A stretch of 35,856 nt of DNA, from positions 1-35,856 of the IMG/VR virus record IMGVR_UViG_3300025102_000107; one strand, given 5' to 3'. Shown here one piece after another: positions 6,977 to 30,772 of the stretch (within the stretch, counting starts at the first letter, position 1; each line of letters begins with the position of its first letter). The DNA comes from a virus. The position numbers were made by a program, and so were the translations under genes. Under the pieces are notes generated by a model. The model saw only the letters and a program-made list of their open reading frames with translations, was not told the origin of the DNA and ran no database searches.

Positions 6977-7696
6977 ATGCCTTTACCAAAAATTGCGACT
7001 CCGACGTATGAGTTGGAGTTACCTTCGTCAGGTGAGACTATTAGTTATAGACCTTTCCTTGTAAAAGAAGAAAAGGTTTTAGTGATTGCCTTAGAAAGTG
7101 AAGATAATAAACAGATCACAAATGCTATTAAGGCAGTATTGAAGAGTTGTGTTCTGTCAAAGGGGATTAAAGTAGAGAAACTTCCTACTTTTGATATTGA
7201 ATTTCTATTCCTCAACATCAGAGGTAAATCTGTTGGAGAAGAATTAGAAGTTAATGTTATCTGTCCTGATGATGAGAAAACTCAAGTTCCTGTTTTAATT
7301 GACTTGGATGATATTCAAGTTCAGAAGTATGATGATCATGAGAACCAGATTAAAATTGATGATAGTATTATGATGGAGATGACTTATCCTTCTCTGGATC
7401 AGTTCATTAAAAATAATTTTGACTTTGATGAAAAGAATGCAATGACACAATCATTTGAATTGATTGCTAGTTGTATTGATAAAATTTACACAGAAGATGA
7501 GGTCTGGGCATCTGCTGATTGTACTAAGAAAGAAATGAATGAGTTTCTTGAATCGATGAACTCAACTCAGTTTAAAGCAATTGAGAAGTTCTTTGAGACT
7601 ATGCCTAAACTATCTCATACTATTGAAGTAACTAATCCCAAGACTAAGAAAAAAAGTGAAGTAGTACTTGAGGGATTAGCGTCTTTTTTCGGGTAG
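6977..7696 (+). CDS. 26: gp26, baseplate hub assembly protein / tail chaperone
   Basis: A 239-residue acidic protein of the T4 gp26 baseplate family: MPLPKIATPTYELELPSSG, then ISYRPFLVKEEKVLVIALES, IEFLFLNIRGKSVGEELE and a C-terminal helical part. It is not a virion building block in classical accounts but is needed to assemble the hub. The gene has a perfect late promoter and an AGGA ribosome site. Its last sense codons are TCT TTT TTC GGG before TAG, containing the heptamer T-TTT-TTC in the zero frame. A -1 slip there enters the gp51 frame with no stop, giving a predicted 300-residue gp26-gp51 fusion. This matches the G/GT logic of tail-assembly chaperones that precede the tape-measure gene in other tailed phages. 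Confidence 0.88.
   Translation: MPLPKIATPTYELELPSSGETISYRPFLVKEEKVLVIALESEDNKQITNAIKAVLKSCVLSKGIKVEKLPTFDIEFLFLNIRGKSVGEELEVNVICPDDEKTQVPVLIDLDDIQVQKYDDHENQIKIDDSIMMEMTYPSLDQFIKNNFDFDEKNAMTQSFELIASCIDKIYTEDEVWASADCTKKEMNEFLESMNSTQFKAIEKFFETMPKLSHTIEVTNPKTKKKSEVVLEGLASFFG
7684..7690 (+). other. -1 ribosomal frameshift site (TTTTTTC) joining gp26 to gp51
   Basis: In the gp26 frame the bases read T-TTT-TTC, the X-XXY-YYZ form in which P- and A-site tRNA-Phe can both re-pair one base back. The zero-frame stop follows after one codon (GGG TAG). The -1 frame continues CGG GTA GCA ATG and stays open to the stop at 7876-7878. A 7-bp hairpin (7713-7719 with 7725-7731, one G-U) lies 22 bases downstream, further than usual for a stimulator. 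Confidence 0.75.
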
Positions 7697-7698
7697 CA

Positions 7699-7878
7699 AT
7701 GCTGCATATGACTCTGGAGAATTACTTCAGACTTAATTTTGCTTTGATGCAGTACCATAAATATAGCTTGACAGAGATTGAGAATATGATGCCTTGGGAA
7801 CGAGACATCTATGTGGGTCTTCTCCAACAACATCTTGAGGAAGAAGAACTAAAACAAAAGCAAAAACAAAATGCCTAA
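7699..7878 (+). CDS. 51: gp51, baseplate hub assembly protein (short; likely also made as gp26-51 fusion)
   Basis: A 59-residue frame, or 56 from the second ATG at 7708. It reads MTLENYFRLNFALMQYHKY then SLTEIENMMPWERDIYVGLL and ends in a Glu/Lys/Gln-rich tail. The SLTEIE..PWERDIYV segment is the conserved heart of short cyanophage gp51 proteins and resembles the T domain of other phages' tail chaperones. No good Shine-Dalgarno precedes either ATG (only GGG at 7691-7693). The zero-frame gp26 stop is 2 bases before ATG 7699, and the frame is reached without a stop by a -1 shift at TTTTTTC (7684-7690). Production as a C-terminal extension of gp26 is therefore likely. It overlaps the next gene's start by eight bases. 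Independent translation by coupling remains possible. Confidence 0.75.
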   Translation: MLHMTLENYFRLNFALMQYHKYSLTEIENMMPWERDIYVGLLQQHLEEEELKQKQKQNA

Positions 7879-19400: not shown

Positions 19401-22400
19401 TAACAGAGGGAGAATGTCCAGAGAGTCCTATTTGGCATACTCGTATGAAACCAGAGGGATCTCCTTGGTATCCAGTTAAGTTTGGGTATTGGGATAAGTG
19501 GACAAATAAGTATGCAATATCTCCAATTCCTCCTCTTAATAGTCCTGGTACAGATGGTACAGGTAACTCAGATGGATGGGAACAGACTTGGATTATAGAT
19601 GCACCCTATGAAGGAGATTATACCTTTAAGGGTACAGTAGATAACTTTGGTCAGATTTTAGTTAATGGTAATTTAGTTGCTGAAAGAAATGATGATCCTA
19701 ATCTCTCTTTTAAAAATGAGGAATATAAAAGATCAAGTTTAGATGTTGTAGTAAAACCAAAAGATAGAGATGAACCATGGCCTCAAGAAACCAAATTCTA
19801 TATGGCAGAAGGTAAGAACACTCTTACTGCTAGAGTTCAAAACTTTAAAAATTATGAGACTAAAAAGAAATATTTTAGTCAAAAGATTTTTAGTACTAAG
19901 GATTGGCAATCAGGAGCACCAATAAAGACTAATAAGAATAACAAACCTGAAGGTATAATGTTTACTAAGACAGGTAGTAAATATTATCTTACTGCTTATG
20001 GTAACGATATAGTTGATGCTGATCTTGGATTTACTTGGGATGTTTTAGAGGGTGCTGCTCCACCTACAACACCTAATAGTGAAACAGTACAGTTTATTAC
20101 CAGTCATCAATCACCTCGTGATAGTACAATTGATATTAAGGAGTTGACCATAAGGTCTCATAAGAATGATGAACGTGGAAAGGTAACTGGAGTTTTTAAT
20201 AACTTTACTAGAGAAGTTGAATATGATAAAGAGTATCAAGTAACTATTAAATGTAATGCAGCAGATGACTATGGTGTTAAGTTAAGAGTTAATAAGACTG
20301 CTGATGGAAAAGAACGTCTCCAGATGGAGGACTATAAGGATTATAATTGGAAGGACTGTGAACTTACTGTAACTGGTGGTAGATTTTATGATCTTGTAGA
20401 TGGGAACACATCTAATAGAACTGCTACTTGTAAATTTAAAGTAGATTCTCCTGCTGCTAAGCTTAATTTCTCTCCACCTTCTGTAACTAAGATTACTGTA
20501 CAAACAGAAACAAATCCTTTAGTCTTTGATGTACCTAAAACTGATGCTCAACCACCAAATACTGGTGGGAATACTAGTAACACTATTAGTTACACTGGAT
20601 TGAAGAGACCAGGAGATAAACGTTATACAAGTTCTAGAAGACTTGCTTTCGATGATAATTCTGGTAATGGATTTGATGAGAATGCTACTTTTAATATTGA
20701 TTCTGTTACTGGAGGAACAGCAGAGTTTAATTCAAGTGGTGATTCTATTGATGTTCAGGGCACTAATGTACAAGTTAGTTTAACTTATGTTTGGGCTGAT
20801 TCACCTAGCAGAAGTGGTAAGGCATTACAGAAGATTCAAATTGGTAATACTACTTGGACACAAACCAATAGCAGTACGGGTAGAGAAACTCATATAATAA
20901 CTTTAAGTGGTGGTTCTAATCCTGCAGATAATTTAGGTAAGGGTGGAGAGCAGTGGAAAGTAAGTGGTACTCTTAAGAAGAGAGGAACCTTTAAGGCAGG
21001 TAAAACTTATGAAGTTACTTTTGTAAAAGGGTATGGTCGTAGACCAGATGGTAGTGCAATTATTAACGTACCAGATCCTACTGTTCTTGAGTCTGGTTGG
21101 ACAGATGAGACACAGACTTCAATTAAATCTAATCCTAAGATGGCATTTAAGAATCCTTGGGATTATTTGCAAGCAATTTCTGTTTATCAGATGTCTTCTG
21201 CGGTTGCTGAACAAGAACTTTTTGCAGACACTACAAGAAATGGTGTAACCTATAAAGGACCAGCACTGTTTAATTATAGAAGTAAGATATATGGAACATT
21301 CATGAATGAGAATGGAATCTCTCCTGATTATCCAAAAATTGGTGGTGCTGAGTTAGTTAATTACACTTGGAGTAATGTTGATTTTCCTGTAACAGGTGAG
21401 TATGCATTTACATTCCAGAATGATCATTCAGCAACTCTTTTTCTTGATGGTCAGCAAATAGGAACTAATACCTTTAGAGGAGTTGATAAGACTAAAGAAG
21501 ATATTGGTGCTGGTAGACACAGTATCGATATGACTGGACAAGGTACTCCTAAAAAGATAACAGTTAATAAAGGTAAGCATACTCTTACAGTAAAACCAAC
21601 TGTTTATACAGCAGAAACTGGAGGTCCAATAGGATTTATAGATGCTCTCTTCCGTAAACCATCTGAAGATTATTACAGAGGTTCATCAGCATTTGATGCT
21701 AATCCAAGTACCTTTGCTATAGGAATAACAAGATTGGTTGAGGATGTACCAGAACCAGGAACACCTCAAGCTTCAGCAGCATCAGGAAAATCATGGTATC
21801 AAAATCCAATAGGACTTTGTGGTATAATTATTCCTCCACCATGTAAGCAGATAAAATGTGGAAAGGGTAGAATTGTTGATCCGTTAGTTGAAGATCCTGG
21901 AACTGGTTTTGAAACAAAACCTACTATTACAGATGATCCAATTGTTGTTGTTGATCCTGGAGATGGAAAACCACCAGATTATCCTGTTCTAATTGTACCT
22001 GTTAAGGTTGTTATAGATGATCCTGGCATCAACTATACGGAACCAGATCCTCCAGGTGGAGATCCTGGTGACACTCCAGTGGTTGATGACCCTCCTGGCA
22101 GTGGTATTGCATTGACTGCTACATTCACACCTCACGGTGGTATTTCAGATATTATAATTCTTGATCCAGGATCAGGAGTTACAAGTACTCCTAGAATTGT
22201 TATACCATCTGATACTGGTGTTAATTTCCGTGGTCATTTTATATTCGATGTTGTTCGTGATCCAATTGATGTACCTGATCCTGATAAACTAGTACAGGTA
22301 ACAGACCTAGTTGGATTAAAACAAACTGGATATATACAAGGTCGAGCATACTATGGTTCTGTATACTATGAGAATGGTATTCCTTATGCAGGAATAACTG

Positions 22401-22558
22401 CGACTGCTGGTAAAGCAATCCAAGTTTATGCTTCTCTTCAAGAGAGTATTGATGGTGTGAGAACTACACCTCCATCAGCAATTCAGAGACAGGGTACTGA
22501 TGTTTCTAGTAATGACCCTAGACTTAATATACCAGGAACTCCTGATAACCTTACCTAA
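16421..22558 (+). CDS. giant duplicated-domain virion protein (PA14-like modules), baseplate or fibre
   Basis: A 2045-residue protein. The N-terminal part (1-150) has a Gly-rich turn and ITNPGFGYQYPPKVEV. Two collinear copies of a module follow. Each has a PA14-like sugar-binding-type sandwich (about 265-370; 1020-1145), then a beta-rich unit of about 315 residues (428-743; 1222-1535), then a second PA14-like sandwich (840-955; 1623-1770). Copies share SHQSPRDST, IRSHKNDERGKVTGVF, DYGVKLRVNK and FYDLVDGNTSNRTATCKF almost unchanged. PA14-like marks include FPWGGEYIFRG with LYIDDQKV, and FPVTGEYAFTFQND with SATLFLDGQQIG. The C-terminus is rich in DPG turns (EDPGTGFETKP; DDPGINYTEP; LDPGSGV). 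PA14-type domains often bind glycans, so contact with host polysaccharide is plausible. Cyanophages carry large proteins of this kind by the hub genes; I know no T4 counterpart. Confidence 0.6.
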   Translation: MAIAATQFNIFGSVTQKEISVGYISSIRGYVPNISLCEANDHEKEYPNTAFILKNRDKVKYIGIDEVNKLVPGDLLPKKDPDNCGSIDLDHKCNSNPEVYFYGGGGVGAFANPVVGTDGGLLTLDITNPGFGYQYPPKVEVKDECGFSKGAVVRVQVSDGDNCVETWKYYKDQMDESGPDICADTSIPYGRVWGVNGQDTGEWDPTKYTRYAADPLMDEVDKYLESLKNLSNPWWTTRQNLNQQNITSSKNGEVTTVGYAVSVTEWSDFLNLYGISPVPPSDEPGSAHGGETFDFEWDIEFPWGGEYIFRGLYAGAVGFGDLYIDDQKVSSLRNKDGLTDPIKYEVGIATTKKVAFKLHNGATTKKAPIQPSREPIVRNAGGKFIKEGKNYFYKVSGNDLVDIDFDFAWDKSLGLPEEEKEKLETKKTVQFITSHQSPRDSTFEISELGIRSHKNDERGKVTGVFNTFAKEIEIGKEYQVTVKCNASDDYGVKLRVNKDGQGRTRLQMEDYKDYNWKDFEVSITDGEFYDLVDGNTSNRTATCKFRIKKPVTPSKPKERPAISKLTIQTETEPLVFEVPKTDFQPPNIGRNNSNTITYRGLKRSGDKRWDSPQRLAFDDNSGNGFDENANFTINYVNGGTAVFNSSGDSIDVEGTNVQIGLTYSWSDSPSRSGKALESIRIGDVTWTQTNSSTGTESHEIILSGGTSLADTLGKGGKDYQQKGIISKKGNFKNGRKYRVTFDRQSYTKVPSIGDTGATQETEDQKIDFFDRGVRIGNTLQIATPQNASFAARTAYQLSENESRIVYPADTTTTEQTIFNTLKYIDKADRRLWKSKNKRGLLAKYGVAPFDTALSLPNMPYAGDHTIIWANITFPVSTNYDIHVHVDDDVRIKIGDQVDFFQDGFVGNNNKATGEVTHTFFVKAGTYTITATHSQIPGGKWPTTNPMALAIDIKASLAYKTVADPKSWNENPMAVALSIKAPTPPPPAAIVPPILTEGECPESPIWHTRMKPEGSPWYPVKFGYWDKWTNKYAISPIPPLNSPGTDGTGNSDGWEQTWIIDAPYEGDYTFKGTVDNFGQILVNGNLVAERNDDPNLSFKNEEYKRSSLDVVVKPKDRDEPWPQETKFYMAEGKNTLTARVQNFKNYETKKKYFSQKIFSTKDWQSGAPIKTNKNNKPEGIMFTKTGSKYYLTAYGNDIVDADLGFTWDVLEGAAPPTTPNSETVQFITSHQSPRDSTIDIKELTIRSHKNDERGKVTGVFNNFTREVEYDKEYQVTIKCNAADDYGVKLRVNKTADGKERLQMEDYKDYNWKDCELTVTGGRFYDLVDGNTSNRTATCKFKVDSPAAKLNFSPPSVTKITVQTETNPLVFDVPKTDAQPPNTGGNTSNTISYTGLKRPGDKRYTSSRRLAFDDNSGNGFDENATFNIDSVTGGTAEFNSSGDSIDVQGTNVQVSLTYVWADSPSRSGKALQKIQIGNTTWTQTNSSTGRETHIITLSGGSNPADNLGKGGEQWKVSGTLKKRGTFKAGKTYEVTFVKGYGRRPDGSAIINVPDPTVLESGWTDETQTSIKSNPKMAFKNPWDYLQAISVYQMSSAVAEQELFADTTRNGVTYKGPALFNYRSKIYGTFMNENGISPDYPKIGGAELVNYTWSNVDFPVTGEYAFTFQNDHSATLFLDGQQIGTNTFRGVDKTKEDIGAGRHSIDMTGQGTPKKITVNKGKHTLTVKPTVYTAETGGPIGFIDALFRKPSEDYYRGSSAFDANPSTFAIGITRLVEDVPEPGTPQASAASGKSWYQNPIGLCGIIIPPPCKQIKCGKGRIVDPLVEDPGTGFETKPTITDDPIVVVDPGDGKPPDYPVLIVPVKVVIDDPGINYTEPDPPGGDPGDTPVVDDPPGSGIALTATFTPHGGISDIIILDPGSGVTSTPRIVIPSDTGVNFRGHFIFDVVRDPIDVPDPDKLVQVTDLVGLKQTGYIQGRAYYGSVYYENGIPYAGITATAGKAIQVYASLQESIDGVRTTPPSAIQRQGTDVSSNDPRLNIPGTPDNLT
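17702..18648 (+). repeat. internal repeat copy 1 (about 0.95 kb)
   Basis: First copy of a diverged direct repeat within the 2045-aa gene, 2.38 kb upstream of the second. Several blocks are identical at DNA level, such as the run of about 45 bases from 17702 and the block starting near 17773 that encodes SHKNDERGKVTGVFN. Confidence 0.85.
20084..21024 (+). repeat. internal repeat copy 2 (about 0.94 kb)
   Basis: Second copy, collinear with 17702-18648. The same 45-base block starts at 20084. Divergence is mostly at third positions and in surface loops, with short indels kept in frame, so both copies are under selection as protein. Confidence 0.85.
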
Positions 22559-22566
22559 TACTATAA

Positions 22567-23262
22567 ATGTCTGGACCTACCTCATATAATAGAAAAAATT
22601 CTAGAGCACCTTCTAAGAATAGGTTGTTGTCTCCTTTAGAGCAGGAGGAAGGTAGTCAATATGATACCGCTAAGATCAATTATACTGCTGTTGGGTGGGG
22701 TAATGATCATGGTTCTGTTACTATGGGTCAGATTCATAAAGATTCTGATGTAACTGCAGCAGTAATGCTTAATACTAGAGATGGATTGCATCAATTCTCT
22801 TTAGATAATGATGGTGTAAGAAGAGGTTCTACAACTTCTACAAGCACTGGTTCATTTCAAGTTAAGTGTGGTAAGTATCCTTGGATTGAGAAAGCAGCAG
22901 ATAAAGAAGCACTTGATAGTTGCTTTATTGAGGCAGAGAATGGTAATATTGTTATCAAGGCAAGTAATGGTAAGATCAGACTTGAAGCAACTGACATTGA
23001 GTTAGTTGCTAAAGGTGAAACAACTGATCGAGGTAATATTAAAATGACTGCCAGTGAAAACATTATAATGGAGTCAAAAAAGACTCTTATAAATGCCAAA
23101 AACTTTTACAAAATGAGTACACCACAAACTATGGAAATTATTGCTAACGGAGTTCTGAAATTGTATGGAAAAACAATTAGAGGTGTTACTGATGCCGTGG
23201 ATGTTAAAGATTCTAAGGTAGGTGGTAGGAATTTCCAACAAAGAGTTAAGGAGGGTGCATAA
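22567..23262 (+). CDS. beta-helix spike-like baseplate protein
   Basis: A 231-residue protein eight bases after the giant gene. Residues about 45-85 have a small beta domain (AVGWGNDHGSVTMGQ, VMLNTRDGLHQFSLDNDG). Residues about 125-215 form short strand repeats with the rhythm of gp5/VgrG needles: ENGNIVIKASNGKIRLEAT, DIELVAKG, GNIKMTASENIIMES, KKTLINAKNF, MEIIANGVLKLYGKTI. Such repeats wind into a triple-stranded beta-helix that pierces the outer membrane. Because the gp5 here lacks a needle, this separate protein is a good candidate for the spike. The TATAAATG at 22562-22569 overlaps its own start codon and cannot be its late promoter. No PAAR-type metal tip is visible. Confidence 0.6.
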   Translation: MSGPTSYNRKNSRAPSKNRLLSPLEQEEGSQYDTAKINYTAVGWGNDHGSVTMGQIHKDSDVTAAVMLNTRDGLHQFSLDNDGVRRGSTTSTSTGSFQVKCGKYPWIEKAADKEALDSCFIEAENGNIVIKASNGKIRLEATDIELVAKGETTDRGNIKMTASENIIMESKKTLINAKNFYKMSTPQTMEIIANGVLKLYGKTIRGVTDAVDVKDSKVGGRNFQQRVKEGA

Positions 23263-23264
23263 CA

Positions 23265-24047
23265 ATGTCTTATAACGTAGATGATTTAAATGTAGGTGGA
23301 CAATTAAAGGTTGGTACTGGTATTAACGGTGCTATCCAAGAAGGAGCAGAAAAAATCAATGGATCTGCTTTGGTAGAGGGTCCGATGGTAGTTGGATCAC
23401 CTGATGATTTTGATGAGATAGAGGCAACCTTAATGGTTGGTCAGATATCTAATGAAGATCCTAATATGCCAGAGGATACTAGTCCTTATAAGACAGTTAA
23501 TGGTATTTCAGGTGCTCAACCACAAGCAATATTTTCTAAGGGAAATATGTATGTTCAGGGAGATATATTTGTTACTGGATCTGTTGATTGCTTTTCAACT
23601 GGTAGATTAGAAGCAAGACATAAGGTGGCAGATAGATCACCTAAACTATTTGATATGCCACATCCTTCTACAGAGGGATATAGACTTGCTCATGCATGTA
23701 TAGAAGGACCAGAGGTTGGTGTTTATTATAGAGGAAGACTCCGTAATAAGACTGAGATTGATTTGCCTTCTTATTGGAAAGATTTAGTTCATGCTGAGAG
23801 TATTTCTGTACAGTTGCAACCAATTGGAGCTCCGCAGGATATTATTATAAAGAGATGGGATGAGAGTAAGATATATTTACAGGCAAGAGGACCAATTCCA
23901 ATCGATTGTTTCTATCATGTGTATGCAGAAAGAAAGGATGTAAATGCATTGGTGGTTGAGTACCAAGGAGAAACCCATGAGGACAGACCTGACAGAGAAG
24001 GTAACGATCCTAAGTATGCTGGAGTGATCAATACGAGGACTAAGTAA
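23265..24047 (+). CDS. short tail-fibre-like virion protein
   Basis: A 260-residue protein beginning two bases after the spike-like gene. The N-terminal half is a fibre-type beta region (DDLNVGGQLKVGTGING, GNMYVQGDIFVTGSVDCFSTG). The C-terminal half has FDMPHPSTEGYRLAHACIEG then PEVGVYYRGRL, a domain (HP...LxHxCxEGPExxVYxRG) that recurs at the ends of tail-fibre and appendage proteins of phages and large viruses. DLPSYWKDL and ISVQLQPIG follow. It is likely a baseplate-peripheral or short-fibre component; no T4 gene number can be assigned. It is the last gene before the structured intergenic region, with its stop at 24045-24047. Confidence 0.65.
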   Translation: MSYNVDDLNVGGQLKVGTGINGAIQEGAEKINGSALVEGPMVVGSPDDFDEIEATLMVGQISNEDPNMPEDTSPYKTVNGISGAQPQAIFSKGNMYVQGDIFVTGSVDCFSTGRLEARHKVADRSPKLFDMPHPSTEGYRLAHACIEGPEVGVYYRGRLRNKTEIDLPSYWKDLVHAESISVQLQPIGAPQDIIIKRWDESKIYLQARGPIPIDCFYHVYAERKDVNALVVEYQGETHEDRPDREGNDPKYAGVINTRTK

Positions 24048-24055
24048 GGAGGGGG

Positions 24056-24084
24056 TTGACAAGGGTTGACAGAGGTGGTATATT
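24056..24084 (+). promoter_or_regulatory. sigma70-type promoter before the structured intergenic RNA
   Basis: TTGACA at 24056-24061 and TATATT at 24079-24084, spaced 17 bases: full -35 and a 5/6 -10. A second TTGACA at 24066-24071 is too close to the same -10 (7 bases). Start expected near 24091, about 215 bases ahead of the next gene. No late TATAAATA is present here. Confidence 0.75.
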
Positions 24085-24090
24085 ATATTT

Positions 24091-24306
24091 GTTGAGTTGA
24101 CGAACCCAACACGGGAGTGACTGAATGAACTTGCTGGCATAAGGCTAGTTAAGGTGATGAGACACAGGTGGTGCTGCACGTTGAAAACGTGAATCGACTT
24201 ACCAGTCGGGTCTCAGACAGTAAGGTAAAAATCTACTCATGTAGCAATGCCCCTTACTTGTTGGTACACATAAATCCAACCTCCCACCCCAATATTTTAG
24301 AGGAAC
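24091..24306 (+). ncRNA. structured RNA: candidate phage ncRNA or riboregulator leader
   Basis: No long reading frame fills this gap on the plus strand, but it is dense in hairpins. (1) 24129-24138 with 24144-24155: ten pairs including two G-U, two single-base bulges, loop ATAAG. (2) A junction closed by TGAGAC/GTCTCA (24158-24163, 24210-24215) holding CAG/CTG (24165-24176), CACGTT-GAA-AACGTG (24177-24191) and CGACT-TACC-AGTCG (24195-24208). (3) AGTAAGG/CCTTACT (24219-24225, 24252-24258) enclosing CTAC-TCAT-GTAG. (4) GTTGG/CCAAC (24260-24264, 24276-24280). A promoter lies just upstream. It may be a free small RNA or the 5' leader of the gene at 24307, which has AGAGGA before its ATG. I match it to no known RNA family. 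Confidence 0.55.
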
Positions 24307-24507
24307 ATGGAAGAAGAATATTTAACTAAGTGTGTTGTTGATACACTTCAAAGAAAGTTTTACCTTTATTCTAATGAAGGTGATAAAAAAGTCGTGGTCT
24401 GTGAGTCTGTAGATGAGTTTATGAATGTACTAGAGTTAGTACGTGCTACATGTCCAGAGGAACGGTTAGTTTATACGGAACCTCTCTCAGGGAAAATCGA
24501 CTTTTAA
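24307..24507 (+). CDS. small acidic protein of unknown function (66 aa)
   Basis: Starts at ATG 24307 with AGAGGA at 24299-24304 as a good ribosome site. The protein reads MEEEYLTKCVVDTLQRKFYL, then YSNEGDKKVVVCESVDEFMN and VLELVRATCPEERLVYTEPL: a small alpha/beta protein with three cysteines and no signal peptide or membrane segment. I do not recognise a family. Its leader is the structured RNA region with a sigma70-type promoter, so it may be expressed early, unlike the late genes around it. Base composition and codon use fit the neighbours. Confidence 0.65.
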   Translation: MEEEYLTKCVVDTLQRKFYLYSNEGDKKVVVCESVDEFMNVLELVRATCPEERLVYTEPLSGKIDF

Positions 24508-24562
24508 TTCCAAAAAAGGCGGGAAAAAATCTCCGTAAAAAAATCCTCGTGATAGGTTTGGC

Positions 24563-24847
24563 ATGAAATACAAGATCGACTCTACATACTGTTGGTACAG
24601 CGATTGGTTGAATAAGAACAGTAGGGTTGTTTTGATGTATTTTATCAATGGCATTCCATTCACATATGATGAATTAGATGATATTGGTATATTAGAAGAA
24701 GATGCTAGAATAATTGCTGATTACGAAACTAAATACAATACGGAAGAATTATATAACTACTCTTGTTACCTAATGCAAGAGGAATTCCATCCATTATTGT
24801 TTGAGATGGAACTTGAGAATCCAGAGATATTGTTTAATGATAAATAA
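24563..24847 (+). CDS. small acidic protein of unknown function (94 aa)
   Basis: Preceded by a weak AGG at 24554-24556. The sequence is rich in Tyr, Asp and Glu (MKYKIDSTYCWYSDWLNKNS, GIPFTYDELDDIGILEEDAR, YNTEELYNYSCYLMQEEFHP), probably mostly helical and cytoplasmic. There is no recognisable family. It lies 55 bases after the 66-aa gene, in an A-rich spacer with no clear promoter, and its last codons contain the GATAAATA late promoter of the next gene. It may be co-transcribed with the 66-aa gene. Confidence 0.6.
   Translation: MKYKIDSTYCWYSDWLNKNSRVVLMYFINGIPFTYDELDDIGILEEDARIIADYETKYNTEELYNYSCYLMQEEFHPLLFEMELENPEILFNDK
24839..24846 (+). promoter_or_regulatory. late promoter candidate before the 1965-aa fibre gene
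   Basis: GATAAATA, 7/8 to the late consensus, overlapping the TAA stop (24845-24847) of the 94-aa gene. Expected start near 24853, about 22 bases before ATG 24875. Confidence 0.55.
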
Positions 24848-24874
24848 TCCATAACGGCTATACGTGTTAATAAA

Positions 24875-27800
24875 ATGGGTCTTTCCAGATTAGATAATTT
24901 TCTGAAATCGGCAAGGGGAACGATTCTCTATGTTAATCCAAACGATTTAGATGCAACAGATAGTGTTGAGAATAAGGGTAATTCGTTAACTCGACCTTTT
25001 AAGACTATTCAACGTGCTTTGATAGAGGCATCTAGATTTTCTTATCAGAAAGGATTGGATAATGATAGATTTGGTAAAACGACGATTTTATTATATCCAG
25101 GCGATCATGCTATAGATAATAGACCTGGTTTTATTCCAGATTCAAGACTTGGTAGTAATAAATTTAGACTTAGGAATGGTGCGACTTCTGATAATTTACC
25201 TCCATTTGACCTAACATCCAATTTTGACTTAACTTCTCCAGATAACGAACTTTACAAATTAAACAGTGTATATGGTGGAGTTATAGTTCCTCGTGGTACT
25301 TCTCTTGTTGGTTTAGACCTTAGAAAGACGAAAATAAGACCAAAATACGTTCCAAACCCATATGATGCAAATATAGACAGAACAGCAATATTCAGAGTTA
25401 CAGGAGAATGCTATTTTTGGCAATTTTCCATATTTGATGCAGATCCTAACGGTAAGGCATATAGGGATTATACAACTGCTAGCTTTGTACCTAATTTTTC
25501 ACACCATAAGTTAACAGTATTTGAATATGCTGATGGTGTTAACAAGGTTAATATCAATGATACCTTTATACAAGGTGTAGATGGTCAATATGATCGTACT
25601 GACCTTGATATGTACTATGAGAAGGTTGGTCTAGTTTACGGTCAATCATCAGGTAGACCAATTGAACCAGATTACCCTGCTGCAGGATTGGATATACAAC
25701 CAAAAGTTGATGAATATCGTATTGTTGGTTCTACAGGTAGAACTGTTGGAATCACCACAATTATTGCTGGTGATGGAATAAACCCAGATACTAATATTAC
25801 TGTTACTACTTCTACAGCAGTTCCTGGACTTGATGTAGATACTCCTTTCCGTATTGCTAATATTGGTGTATCCGAGTTTAATGGTCAATTTGTCGTATCT
25901 GAGAAAATTAGTGATACTCAAATTAAGTATCAAGTACAAAATGCACCTGCATCTGCAAAACCTAGTGTAGCAGGAGCAACTTTATCACTTACATCTGATA
26001 CTGTAACATCATCTTCTCCTTATATCTTTAACGTATCATTACGTTCTGTATATGGTGCTTGTGGATTGCTTTCTGATGGATCAAAGGCAACTGGATTTAA
26101 GTCTATGGTTGTTGCTCAATACACTGGTATTGGATTGCAGAAGGATGATAATGCGTTTACTGTTTACAGTTCTACTGATGGTAAGTACAGTTATCAATCA
26201 TCTGCTTCAGAACCATTAAGTACTAATTCAAGAGCAATTTATAAACCAGAGTATGCAAACTTCCATATAAAGGTAATAAATGATGCCTTTATTCAGGCAG
26301 TTTCTGTGTTTGCTATCGGTTATGCAGAACATTTCGTAACTGAGAGTGGTGGTGATATTTCACTTACAAACTCTAACTCTAACTTTGGTGCAAAATCTCT
26401 ATCTTCTGATGGATTTAAAAAAGACGCATTTGCACAGGATGACCAAGGATATATTACCCACATTATTCCTCCAAAAGAACTACCTCTTACAGAAACATCT
26501 GTCGAATTTGAGTTAGTTGATGTTGGAGTAACTACTTCTGTTGGTATTGCAACTAATCTTTATCTTTATGGTCAGAAGAACCAAGATATTTTACCAGAAA
26601 ATGTTAGAGAAGGATATAGAATTGGTGCAAGATCTGATGACAAGTTAAGAGTTCTTATTTCAGAATCTGGTGTTGTTAATGAGTATAGTGCTCGTATTGT
26701 TATGGAAGGATCAGAGTCAACCTCTGAAAAGTCCTTTGGTGTTGAAAGAATATTAACTGGTAATAATATTGCAAATAATGTAATTAGATTTACTTCTAAT
26801 CATACATTTAAGAATGGTGAATCTGTTCGTGTAATTAGTGAAAATGGACATTTACCTGATGGTATTACCCCAAATACAATTTACTATGCAATAACCAAAG
26901 AAAATGCAAGTAGTGGTATTACAGCAGACACTGATATTAAACTTGCAAAGACTCTTAGTGATGCGTTGACTGATACTACTGGTAATGAAATTGCTATCAA
27001 CCAGAAAGGTGGAATTCTAACTGTATCAAGTAGAGTATCTGATAAGAACTCTGGTGATATTGGACACCCAATTCAGTTTGATAGTGGAAATTCTCAATGG
27101 TACGTTAATGTAGGTTCTGCTAATACATCTTTCTATACCAAAGTAAATGAGTTAGGTACTGCTAATTTGGGTGATGCAACACCAAGAACCTTTGTAACAA
27201 GAAAGAATGATAATAGAAACTCTGTTGATACTCTTTACAGAGCAAGATATGTAATTCCAAAGGATGGTGCAACTGCAAGACCTCCAAGTGATGGTTATAT
27301 TCTTCAGGAATCAAACCATACAACTGCAGCAACTGATGCAGAAATTCAAACCTACTATGGAAGTGGATCACTATCTTCAGTTAATCAGCAAAGAAACTTT
27401 AGATTTATTGCAGGTGCTGAATGGAATGGTTCTGATACAGTAACTGTATCTACAGAATTACCTCATAACTTAACAGTTGGATCTGATGTTCAGTTAGAAA
27501 ATATTAGGAGTACTGAAAATGCAACTGCTGTTGCAGATTCTGGATATAACAGGAATTATACTGTTATTGGTATTAGTAGTTCAAAGGCATTTAATGTTGG
27601 ATTAACAACTAATCCAGGTACATTTACTAATGATACTTCTTCTAGAACTACTACATTACCTTACTTTAAGAGAAAGAGGTATGAAAATAACTACTATGTC
27701 TTTAGAAATCAAGAAGTACAAGAATATATCTCTGGAGAGCAGGATGGTGTTTACTATCTAACTCTACTTAACTCTTCTAATGCTCCAACGGTAGCACCTT

Positions 27801-30772
27801 TTACTAATGAGGACTTCTCTCAACCAGTAAAAGAATTATTCCCTCAAACAAATAGAGACAATCCTCATTCAGATCCCCCAGAAGCTAAATCTTTTGCTTC
27901 TCCAAGTTTGATTGGTGATGTTGTTGTTAATGATGTTAGAAGTAGTATTACTAAGGAAACTGTTAATAAGTATAATCGTGATGTTGATTTTGGTGTAGGA
28001 ATTTCTAATATCAAATCTACAACTGGATTTGCTCATGAAATTACTACCGATGTAGATCATGGATTGAATAGAATTACTAAACTTAGTATTGGTGTTGGTA
28101 ATAGTGGTGCTGGATATGGTGATGGAACTGGTGGAGACTATTATAATGTTAAATTAGTATCTATCGGTGCATCTGTAACTGGTAAGAGTGCAACTGCTAA
28201 AGTTACTGTTGATCCTACTGGTGGTGTAACTGCTGTTAAGATCATGGACGGTGGTAGTGCATATGGTATAGGTAACACTCTTGCGGTTGTTGGTATTGCA
28301 ACAACAACAGGTCACGTTGCTGCTGTTGTTGAAGTTGAGAACATTTATAATAACATTGGTGATGTTATTAGAATTAGTGGAATTACATCTACTGCAAATT
28401 CAGGATACAATCAACTTTATAGAGTTGATTCAGTTGGATTTGGATCTGCTACTTCGGTCAATGTATCATCTTCCTCGTCTATTTCTAACTTCTCTACAAC
28501 TGGTATTATTCCAGATATTGCTGAGAAAGCATATCTTTACTTAACTGGTGGAGAGATTAGAGTTAGTACCTTAACTTATGATAATGGTTCTGGTATTGCA
28601 ACAGTAGTTACTGCAAATAATCATGGATTAAGAGTTGATACAAGAGTTAGACTTGCTGGTGCTGATAATGACTTCTACAATAATAGTTTTGTAGTTACTG
28701 AAAACATCAGTCTCAACTCCTTTGCTATCAATATTGGATCAGGGGAGGCATCACCTGCAACAACTGGAAGTATTGCAGTATATCATGAAGGATATGCAGC
28801 AAATGATGGTGCTATTTCTCTAGACAATGAAAACTTATTTGGTAGAATGGTTCCAACTTATGCTGGAATTACAACTGTAATCTCAAATAACGTTTCTAAT
28901 ACTACTACAGACCAACTTTATATTGAGAATATCAAGAAGTATGATATTCAGATTGGTGATTACTTGGTAGTTGATGATGAGATCTTTAGGGTTAAGACTA
29001 CAACCAATGCAGGGTCTACGAATCAGGTATCAAACCCATTAACAGTATTCCGTGGTGCTCTTGGATCTAAGAGATCAACTCACACTATCAACTCTGTTGT
29101 TAGAAGAATAGATGTTAACCCTGTAGAACTTAGAAGACACTCTATCATCCGTGCATCTGGTCACACATTTGAGTATGTTGGATATGGTCCAGGTAACTAC
29201 TCAACTGCATTCCCAGATAAGCAAGATAGACAGATTAGTTTCCAAGAGGAACTATTAGCACAATCAACTAAGAAAGCTGGTGGTGTTAACTTCTACACTG
29301 GTATGAATGACAAAGGTATTTCATACACAGGTAATAAGAAATTAAGTACATTAACAGGTCAGGAAGAAATCTTTGACACCCCAATTCAAACTGTTACAGG
29401 TGAAGATATTGGTGCTCTTCCTACTATTAACGTAACAAATGCTACCGAAGGTTCATTTAGTCGTTCTATTAGAGTAGAGGGTGGTCCTGATAATAAGGCA
29501 TCATCTGAATTTAATGGTCCTGTTATTCTTAACAACAAACTAACATCTGTATCTGATAAGGGTATTGAGGCACAGTCATACTACATTCAGGGTGATCAGA
29601 TTGTTTCTAGAAAGCATACTATATCGAACGTAGCACCTACACTATCTGGTAACCCAGGTGACATTGTTTGGAACTCTGACCCAACTGATGGTGGATATGT
29701 TGGTTGGATAATGAGTGCTGATAATGATTGGAGAAGATTTGGTAATGTAAGTAACTCTAAGTATTCTAATATTGGAGTTTATGATCAGGTTGCTATTGGT
29801 ACAATCACACCTAATCTTAACAGATTCCAAGTTGGATCAGGAACTACATTAGTTTCTATTGATGACTATGGTGTAGGTATTGGAACAACTGCAAATGGAT
29901 ATGGTCTTCATATCATTTCTGGTGCTAGATTTAGTGGTAACATTACAGATATTGATGGTGCAGCAGGTGCTCCAGGTGAAGTTATTGAATCAACTGGTAC
30001 TGGTATTAGATGGTCTAATATTGGTCAGATTAACGGTTGGTCAAGAACTGCTGATAACGATGGAACATACAATACTAACCAAGACTTCATAGGTATTGGT
30101 ATTACCACACCTAAGACTAATTTGGAAGTTGGTACTGTCGGAATGGCAGCGACTGCTCTGAAGGTTAATGGAAGTTCTGAGTTTGTTGGATTAGTAACTG
30201 CTACGAACGTTTATGTAAGTGGTATGTTGACTGCATCTGCGATTGACTTGCAGACAGGAACACAAGGTCAACTTAGTGTTGGTGTTATTACTGCTACTGG
30301 ATTCAACGTTGGTGAGTTTGTTGTTACAGGAGATAAGGTCGGTATCGGCACAACTCAACCGAAGAGTGCTCTCGACATTCAGGGACATGCAACATTCAAG
30401 ACATACTCTGAAAATGTAGGATACTTACCTATCAATGCTAGTATTGTTACTGTGGATCTTTCACATGCACAATCCTTTATATGCACAGCAACGAGTGATA
30501 TAACCAAGTTTGATCTTACTAATTTGCCGCCTGGATCGACATCATTTACGATCAAGGTTCAACAAGACGGAACAGGTAATCGAACTGTTGGTATAGATAA
30601 CTTTAGTATTAACGGTAGTGCATTGATTCCAGTAAGGTGGCCAGGTGGAATTGCTCCTGTGGTTACTGTAACAGCAAGTAGATCTGATATCTACTCATTC
30701 AAGATATGGGATGGTAACAATGCAGTTAGTGAAGGACTATACGGAGTAATCGGAGGTCAGAACTTCGCATGA
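24875..30772 (+). CDS. large virion protein with beta-helix N-terminus, tail fibre/baseplate appendage
   Basis: A 1965-residue protein. The N-terminus (SARGTILYVNPNDLDATDS, LTRPFKTIQRALIEASRF, TTILLYPGDHAID) is the opening of a right-handed pectate-lyase-type beta-helix, extending to about residue 270. Several copies of a small beta domain with an HGL-type motif follow: near 307-355 (VPGLDVDTPFRIANIG), 855-910 (LPHNLTVGSDVQLENI), 1057 (VDHGLNRITKLSIG) and 1241-1290 (NNHGLRVDTRVRLAGAD). The C-terminal 450 residues have fibre-like repeats (VGIGTTQPKSALDIQG, ATNVYVSGMLTASAIDL) and end in a compact beta domain. I see no enzyme active site with certainty. Similar large structural proteins are a constant of cyanomyoviruses. 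It likely forms a long appendage for host attachment. It overlaps the next gene by ATGA. Confidence 0.7.
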   Translation: MGLSRLDNFLKSARGTILYVNPNDLDATDSVENKGNSLTRPFKTIQRALIEASRFSYQKGLDNDRFGKTTILLYPGDHAIDNRPGFIPDSRLGSNKFRLRNGATSDNLPPFDLTSNFDLTSPDNELYKLNSVYGGVIVPRGTSLVGLDLRKTKIRPKYVPNPYDANIDRTAIFRVTGECYFWQFSIFDADPNGKAYRDYTTASFVPNFSHHKLTVFEYADGVNKVNINDTFIQGVDGQYDRTDLDMYYEKVGLVYGQSSGRPIEPDYPAAGLDIQPKVDEYRIVGSTGRTVGITTIIAGDGINPDTNITVTTSTAVPGLDVDTPFRIANIGVSEFNGQFVVSEKISDTQIKYQVQNAPASAKPSVAGATLSLTSDTVTSSSPYIFNVSLRSVYGACGLLSDGSKATGFKSMVVAQYTGIGLQKDDNAFTVYSSTDGKYSYQSSASEPLSTNSRAIYKPEYANFHIKVINDAFIQAVSVFAIGYAEHFVTESGGDISLTNSNSNFGAKSLSSDGFKKDAFAQDDQGYITHIIPPKELPLTETSVEFELVDVGVTTSVGIATNLYLYGQKNQDILPENVREGYRIGARSDDKLRVLISESGVVNEYSARIVMEGSESTSEKSFGVERILTGNNIANNVIRFTSNHTFKNGESVRVISENGHLPDGITPNTIYYAITKENASSGITADTDIKLAKTLSDALTDTTGNEIAINQKGGILTVSSRVSDKNSGDIGHPIQFDSGNSQWYVNVGSANTSFYTKVNELGTANLGDATPRTFVTRKNDNRNSVDTLYRARYVIPKDGATARPPSDGYILQESNHTTAATDAEIQTYYGSGSLSSVNQQRNFRFIAGAEWNGSDTVTVSTELPHNLTVGSDVQLENIRSTENATAVADSGYNRNYTVIGISSSKAFNVGLTTNPGTFTNDTSSRTTTLPYFKRKRYENNYYVFRNQEVQEYISGEQDGVYYLTLLNSSNAPTVAPFTNEDFSQPVKELFPQTNRDNPHSDPPEAKSFASPSLIGDVVVNDVRSSITKETVNKYNRDVDFGVGISNIKSTTGFAHEITTDVDHGLNRITKLSIGVGNSGAGYGDGTGGDYYNVKLVSIGASVTGKSATAKVTVDPTGGVTAVKIMDGGSAYGIGNTLAVVGIATTTGHVAAVVEVENIYNNIGDVIRISGITSTANSGYNQLYRVDSVGFGSATSVNVSSSSSISNFSTTGIIPDIAEKAYLYLTGGEIRVSTLTYDNGSGIATVVTANNHGLRVDTRVRLAGADNDFYNNSFVVTENISLNSFAINIGSGEASPATTGSIAVYHEGYAANDGAISLDNENLFGRMVPTYAGITTVISNNVSNTTTDQLYIENIKKYDIQIGDYLVVDDEIFRVKTTTNAGSTNQVSNPLTVFRGALGSKRSTHTINSVVRRIDVNPVELRRHSIIRASGHTFEYVGYGPGNYSTAFPDKQDRQISFQEELLAQSTKKAGGVNFYTGMNDKGISYTGNKKLSTLTGQEEIFDTPIQTVTGEDIGALPTINVTNATEGSFSRSIRVEGGPDNKASSEFNGPVILNNKLTSVSDKGIEAQSYYIQGDQIVSRKHTISNVAPTLSGNPGDIVWNSDPTDGGYVGWIMSADNDWRRFGNVSNSKYSNIGVYDQVAIGTITPNLNRFQVGSGTTLVSIDDYGVGIGTTANGYGLHIISGARFSGNITDIDGAAGAPGEVIESTGTGIRWSNIGQINGWSRTADNDGTYNTNQDFIGIGITTPKTNLEVGTVGMAATALKVNGSSEFVGLVTATNVYVSGMLTASAIDLQTGTQGQLSVGVITATGFNVGEFVVTGDKVGIGTTQPKSALDIQGHATFKTYSENVGYLPINASIVTVDLSHAQSFICTATSDITKFDLTNLPPGSTSFTIKVQQDGTGNRTVGIDNFSINGSALIPVRWPGGIAPVVTVTASRSDIYSFKIWDGNNAVSEGLYGVIGGQNFA

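Follow-up and report, generated by a model that had tools for sequence, protein, structure and literature searches.

The 259-base gene-free gap at positions 24048-24306 of the window (the whole stretch of 35,856 nucleotides analyzed here, from a marine cyanobacterial virus) almost certainly encodes the manA RNA (Rfam RF01745), and the RNA of the window is a further member of this published family, which its discoverers proposed as a candidate riboswitch (Weinberg et al., 2010; PMC2864571). The most plausible reading of its role, to which we assign a probability slightly above one half (about 0.55), is that manA serves here as a movable 5' leader of an early transcript, for the 66-aa DUF7294 gene that follows it. 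Family, structure, promoter sequence, genome positions and exchange of the element were all established by computation.

A covariance-model search assigned positions 24090-24290 of the + strand to RF01745 over the full length of the model (positions 1-192 of 192), with a score of 165.8 bits against the gathering cut-off of 55.2 and an E-value of 1.6e-44. No other Rfam family exceeded its gathering threshold anywhere in the window; at a looser threshold, the region 24000-24400 yielded one additional match, a chance one on the opposite strand (15.1 bits against a cut-off of 80). According to the Rfam structure line, the RNA, all on the + strand, begins with a stem-loop (24090-24111; TGTTGA/CCAACA) whose sequence is highly variable among the copies, followed by the helix that closes the RNA at 24113-24285, GGGAG (24113-24117)/CTCCC (24281-24285). 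Within this helix lie a four-way junction (24158-24215) closed by TGAGAC (24158-24163)/GTCTCA (24210-24215), with inner hairpins at 24165-24176, 24177-24191 and 24194-24209, the long 3' stem (helix 9, 24219-24258) and the last hairpin, GTTGG/CCAAC (helix 11, 24260-24280). The original prediction, made from the letters of the sequence, had described the gap, its hairpins, the junction, the 5' stem-loop and the long 3' stem, all of which are present at correct coordinates and, for the junction and stems, in the Rfam structure; the structured phage RNA that it proposed is real, and the Rfam covariance search that it suggested found the family, so that its statement that the element matches no RNA family was mistaken.

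The copies used for comparison were collected by scanning viral contigs with two conserved manA motifs (at least 120 contigs), with four genome contigs added by the same motifs and three phage genomes via blastn. Altogether 125 of the 127 collected records contain a manA match, 122 of them above the cut-off, with the caveat that copies obtained by exact motifs are mutually related and the counts are not independent. The three weak matches are small pieces of manA at a contig end, and the two records without a match are bacterial genomes (L126 and L127) in which the motif presumably occurs by chance. In a MAFFT alignment of 47 non-redundant copies, which was not fitted to the structure and on which the Rfam structure was drawn from the window, 91.5% of the cells pair. 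Compensatory changes among relatives, which the original prediction had proposed to look for, were found: both sides change in 32 of the 54 base pairs, compared to 18.5 (sd 1.8) in shuffled alignments, none of 500 of which reaches 32, and the covariation score is 0.295, compared to 0.119 after shuffling and 0.043-0.067 with the partners slid. Helix 9 is the best supported, with both-side changes at all seven pairs, followed by the junction-closing helix (5 of 6 pairs) and helices 7 and 8 (4 of 5 each); helices 1 and 10 are weak or badly aligned (60% and 62% of the cells paired, respectively). Four of the five pairs of the GGGAG/CTCCC closing helix are invariant and the fifth changes on both sides in a single sequence, so covariation says little about this barely varying helix. 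Covariation of manA pairs has already been published, with 48 significant pairs (Rfam 14; PMC7779021).

The structure is accepted because of the covariance-model match and the covariation, not because of folding energy. The predicted fold (-58.9 kcal/mol) does lie below the shuffled mean (-52.8), a comparison of the kind proposed in the original prediction, but unconvincingly so, with z of -1.40 and 20 of 200 shuffles equal or better, and z falls to -0.41 once the gene start is included; folding energy was accordingly dropped as a proof of structure. The same prediction also considered a tRNA mimic, for which the four-way junction with three inner hairpins could speak, with a seven-base TTGAAAA loop as a further sign. 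ARAGORN recognizes no cloverleaf and reports no tRNA genes (0) in the window, there is no Rfam tRNA match, the helices are those of manA, and the TTGAAAA loop is one of the forms taken by a hairpin whose loop, in 140 of 176 copies, is a GNRA tetraloop; the tRNA mimic was therefore rejected as extremely improbable.

At the 5' edge of the RNA, the + strand carries a predicted sigma-70-type promoter (24056-24084) that consists of TTGACA (24056-24061), a 17-nt spacer and TATATT (24079-24084) preceded by TG, such that the predicted transcript start, around 24091, lies no more than a few bases from where manA begins. This is the only site that matches 11 of 12 positions between 22000 and 26000 (the next best matches 9 of 12), in a region where promoter-like sites occur at the background frequency (15, compared to a shuffled mean of 15.1). 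Of the copies whose flanks are complete (108), 106 have at the 5' edge of manA a site with no more than two mismatches of 12, and 100 a site with no more than one, whereas the corresponding counts among 5049 segments drawn at random from these loci are 159 and 35; a slightly different scan of a larger set recovered the site, with at most two mismatches, in 168 of 170 copies. The promoter of 58 of the 170 copies contains a nested terminator hairpin with the -35 box in its loop, as in L224 around 7645-7700 (GGAGGGG-TTGACA-CCCTCC-TTTTTTT, where the spacer holds the T-run); the promoter in the window lacks such a hairpin. According to a review of cyanomyoviruses, the unmodified host polymerase may use sigma-70-like promoters for early genes, and such promoters were not found in phage S-RSM4 (PMC2984593).

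In the window, manA lies between tail genes. Upstream lies a 260-aa gene of the tail/virion gene block (phrog_17490; 23265-24047, +); the first gene after manA encodes the 66-aa DUF7294 protein (PF23966, phrog_662; 24307-24507, +), to which no function is assigned, with a Shine-Dalgarno-like AGAGG at 24299-24303 (+), and a tail fibre gene follows downstream (phrog_529; 24875-30772, +; first 675 codons searched). The RNA ends at 24290 and the gene starts at 24307, which places manA in the putative 5' UTR. Position and promoter fit the riboswitch-like leader for the 66-aa gene that was among the initial suggestions, a suggestion whose riboswitch part is putative.

The DUF7294 protein has tblastn matches in 42 phage records, of which seven were examined (AG-345-O18, S-SM2, Bellamy, S-SKS1, AG-345-E08, AG-345-E15 and S-BM3). 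DUF7294 is followed by the tail fibre gene in all seven, a homologue of the 260-aa gene lies upstream in five (it was not detected in S-SKS1 and S-BM3), and manA is absent from the tail locus in all seven. Inspection by eye revealed a sigma-70 promoter, TTGACA-17-TATAAT or one base off, immediately before DUF7294 in S-SM2, Bellamy, S-SKS1, AG-345-E15 and S-BM3, and none in AG-345-O18 and AG-345-E08. Because in several relatives this gene directly follows a sigma-70 promoter, with no manA between them, manA appears to be an add-on leader. Searches of the complete S-SM2, Bellamy, S-SKS1 and S-BM3 genomes found no manA, and AG-345-E15, which has none at the tail locus (L229), carries on another contig (L240) a copy 97% identical to that of the window. 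The tail locus is occupied in L018, with manA between the same genes as in the window, and in L124, with manA behind a 260-aa protein 93% identical to that of the window. The latter contig (PBKX01000039.1, assigned to a Flavobacteriales MAG) is a phage contig of the window's tail locus that was apparently misbinned; its manA lies near the end of the contig and might reflect an assembly chimera, and it was not relied on as stand-alone proof of recombination. In several related loci, tRNA genes are located between DUF7294 and the tail fibre gene (L225, 4244-4706; L226, 3940-4406; L227, 3465-3753; L230, 2669-2831).

Twelve named manA genomes, 11 of cultured phages as named and one, metaG-MbCM1, metagenomic by name, were searched whole (the others are P-SSM7, P-SSM2, P-SSM4, S-TIM4, P-HM1, MED4-213, P-HM2, P-RSM6, S-SSM5, S-SSM7 and P-SSM3). 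Each contains exactly one copy, and the twelve copies occupy seven sites: after gp23 in five genomes, after pstS in two, and in the remaining five at a different place each, namely upstream of gp32 (in P-HM2), upstream of talC, between regA and purS, between the genes for ferredoxin and a carbamoyltransferase, and upstream of a tRNA-Gly near gp43. An exception to the single copy is a 4.8-kb metagenome contig (G066/L069; IMGVR 3300006565_000419), on which two copies of manA are separated by 3.5 kb. The hypothetical proteins that overlap manA in the annotation of L232, L234, L237, L238, L231 and L003 (PHM1_121, PHM2_011/012, SSSM5_127, SSSM7_180, HOT69_gp132 on the opposite strand, and PSSM4_169.1) are probably not genes. 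Another copy-bearing contig, L125 (QCLS01000003.1, 189 kb, Prochlorococcus AG-418-C09), with phage-family genes for an SbcCD-like protein, a late sigma factor and a helicase, resembles a cyanophage genome inside a single-cell assembly.

Among 146 copies with both flanks, whose flanking genes were compared by BLASTP within 1.2 kb, no common flanking gene was detected in 63 of the 139 pairs of copies that are at least 97% identical and in 370 of the 477 pairs that are 93-97% identical. The 15 nearest relatives of the window copy among the 146 (82.1-97.7% identity) share no flanking gene with the window, and its identity to copies at unrelated locations reaches 96-98%, whereas L018, with both flanks as in the window, has a manA only 79.3% identical (82.6% by pairwise alignment). 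Comparison by segment indicates that the likeness to L113, L094 and L240 spans manA from its 5' end to its 3' end and then stops, and that L124 is 92-97% similar up to 24112 and 76-85% similar over the remaining manA. In a tree of 158 copies with 16 downstream groups, the downstream group changes 73 times, compared to 99 (sd 2.3) with shuffled labels, and therefore the gene context is partly inherited with the RNA. As judged by sequence comparison, then, manA is often swapped independently of its neighbours, though non-randomly. Metagenome contigs often end near manA, and part of the signal that they give could stem from assembly chimeras at a conserved repeat, a doubt that does not extend to the cultured isolates.

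The genes behind manA bear on whether it is a metabolite riboswitch, that is, an RNA that would bind a sugar-phosphate or nucleotide-like compound and switch metabolic genes. The candidate was described upstream of genes for mannose/fructose and nucleotide metabolism, the ibpA chaperone and photosynthesis (PMC2864571), its conserved fold is complex, and PurS, phosphomannomutase, ManA cupin, transaldolase and Hsp20 are fitting downstream genes. However, the first downstream ORFs of 107 copies (called mechanically, ATG and at least 40 aa, with each group named by one representative) fall into 33 groups without a recurring metabolic theme or shared pathway. The gp32 ssDNA-binding protein comes first (20 copies), ahead of transaldolase (13), the small ORF phrog_878 (12) and phrog_431 (6), and the smaller groups include phosphomannomutase (5), PurS (4), 2OG-Fe(II) oxygenase (4), Hsp20 (3), ManA cupin (2), DUF7294 (2) and others. 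Furthermore, ARAGORN detects a tRNA gene within 300 nt downstream of 10 of 108 copies, the window's own gene is DUF7294, and the literature searched gives no ligand. A metabolite riboswitch is thus unlikely; because the downstream genes share no pathway, a single-metabolite switch appears less probable than a general effect on the early transcript (stability or readthrough) or an RNA acting in trans.

The latter, a stand-alone small RNA that has a promoter and in some cases a terminator to itself and for which the downstream gene is incidental, would account for the single copy per genome in all 12 genomes searched, at seven different sites, and for the promoter; terminator-like hairpins occur within 130 nt after 29 of 108 copies and, by a stricter test, behind 25 of 176, compared to 40 of 1770 random segments. 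But no terminator was found within this distance in the other 79 of 108, the window included, there is no terminator-like site on the + strand of the window between 22000 and 26000, and the next ORF often begins 10-40 nt past the RNA, so that we consider the small RNA about as doubtful as the metabolite riboswitch. Two of these observations speak against a leader: a general leader would not be expected to occur just once in a genome, which suits an RNA acting in trans equally well, and behind the copies followed by a terminator-like hairpin the downstream gene would be off unless read through. The put RNA of phage HK022 and the EAR RNA act on the very polymerase that makes them, and by analogy manA might be an antiterminator that allows early transcription to pass terminators. 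Its location at the predicted transcript start of operons with unrelated content and the terminator-like hairpins behind some copies are in line with such activity, whereas the single copy seen in each of the 12 genomes searched is not, and we consider an antiterminator quite improbable.

Many manA copies are followed, after 7-17 nt, by a conserved hairpin of the form [GA]ACCUAAGAUGCAAC-loop-GGGCAGAUGGU, also written GACCUAAGAUGCAAC..GGGCAGAUGGUC or GACCUAAGAUGCAAC...GGGCAGAUGG (for example, L013, 524-555, and L048, 2900-2932). A separate scan for its core found 118 contigs, in 105 of which manA lies just upstream; in the other 13 the hairpin is too near the contig end, and none of the 105 testable contigs has the hairpin without manA. 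In the sample of 108 copies, which was assembled chiefly through the manA motifs, 22 have the hairpin; it is absent from the window copy, and 18 loci scanned with Rfam gave no match to it at the gathering threshold. The hairpin does not appear to be a mere terminator: under a strict test, the T-run terminator form is found behind only 11 of 89 copies and is absent behind 78. It is possibly an undescribed 3' part of the manA RNA. Its CCUAAG/AUGG presumably resembles the 11-nt tetraloop receptor, and GNRA loops are more common in copies with the hairpin (80 of 89) than without it (60 of 87; Fisher p 0.0007). The association disappears when relatedness is taken into account (14 independent pairs, of which on average 1.3 speak for it and 0.7 against), and GAAA does not predominate among the loops, so tertiary docking of the GNRA loop to the hairpin was rejected as unsupported.

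Under the preferred reading, manA as a movable early leader, the unmodified host RNA polymerase would start at the sigma-70 promoter (24056-24084), inside an otherwise late tail-gene block, make manA first (about 200 nt) and then continue into the DUF7294 gene 17 bases beyond; transcription from this promoter and its early timing are what we infer from the promoter sequence. The element would be exchanged among phage genomes and positions, apparently via recombination at the RNA and the promoter. Acting in cis, the leader would most likely set the output of the operon behind it, with the compact 5' fold protecting or delaying the transcript. In addition, the closing CUCCC strand might leave its helix to pair with the downstream ribosome-binding site: in the window, CCTC (24280-24283), which CUCCC overlaps, could pair with GAGG of AGAGG and provide an on/off choice, although the predicted fold of 24091-24345 does not contain this GAGG:CCUC pairing. 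A Shine-Dalgarno-like motif precedes only 19 of the 107 first ORFs, and therefore such a switch cannot be general; it was rejected as a rule and is considered as a possibility for the window alone. Expression evidence for P-HM2 was sought in one study of Prochlorococcus infection (PMC5082946), in whose searched text the terms PHM2 and gp32 are absent.

A wider generalization, tentative and more apt to fail than to hold, is that manA, rather than a mannose-gene switch, is a module of marine T4-like phages that is bound to a promoter, can change position and as a rule occurs once. It would stand at the start of a single early transcript in each genome and exert its effect in trans or on the transcription apparatus, and the 3' hairpin GACCUAAGAUGCAAC...GGGCAGAUGG would be an undescribed part of the same machine. 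Since its publication as a riboswitch candidate in 2010, manA has no ligand in the literature searched; if it is a movable leader of early transcripts, the hunt for a ligand guided by neighbour genes would be misdirected, and the questions would shift to transcript stability, readthrough or translation after the host polymerase starts, and to how phages swap the element. The presence of manA in cultured phages such as P-HM2, P-SSM2 and P-SSM4 puts these questions within reach of infection experiments in the laboratory. Other publications on manA include a paper on cyanophage S-CREM1 (PMC9964418) and Rfam 14 (PMC7779021); in the full-text literature searched for manA RNA, which does not suffice to establish absence from print, we found no mention of the 5'-edge promoter, the movable position or the 3' hairpin.

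The window copy resembles the manA motif as described by Weinberg et al. (2010; PMC2864571) in its helices, its T4-like cyanophage home and the presence of a gene downstream, and differs in that this gene is DUF7294 within a tail-gene block and not one of the metabolic genes named for the motif. The wcaG and PhotoRC-II RNAs are likewise structured RNAs of T4-like cyanophages (PMC2864571), but they are separate models, neither of which matches the window at the gathering threshold; PhotoRC-II is present elsewhere in L033 and L224. Another close parallel is provided by the PeSL cassettes of T4-like phages, which similarly combine an early promoter with a regulatory structure and are tied to gene shuffling (PMC4503421), although in one region of S-PM2 they were judged an unlikely cause of gene gain (PMC4503421). 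Unlike PeSLs, manA adds a folded RNA of 200 nt behind the promoter, and in the window no terminator stem-loop accompanies the promoter, there being no terminator-like site on the + strand from 22000 to 26000. The likeness consists in a predicted early-type promoter in an intergenic region (24056-24084 in the window), in the nested terminator hairpin of 58 of 170 manA copies, and in the fact that one cassette occurs at various places in the genome, with seven sites among the 12 genomes.
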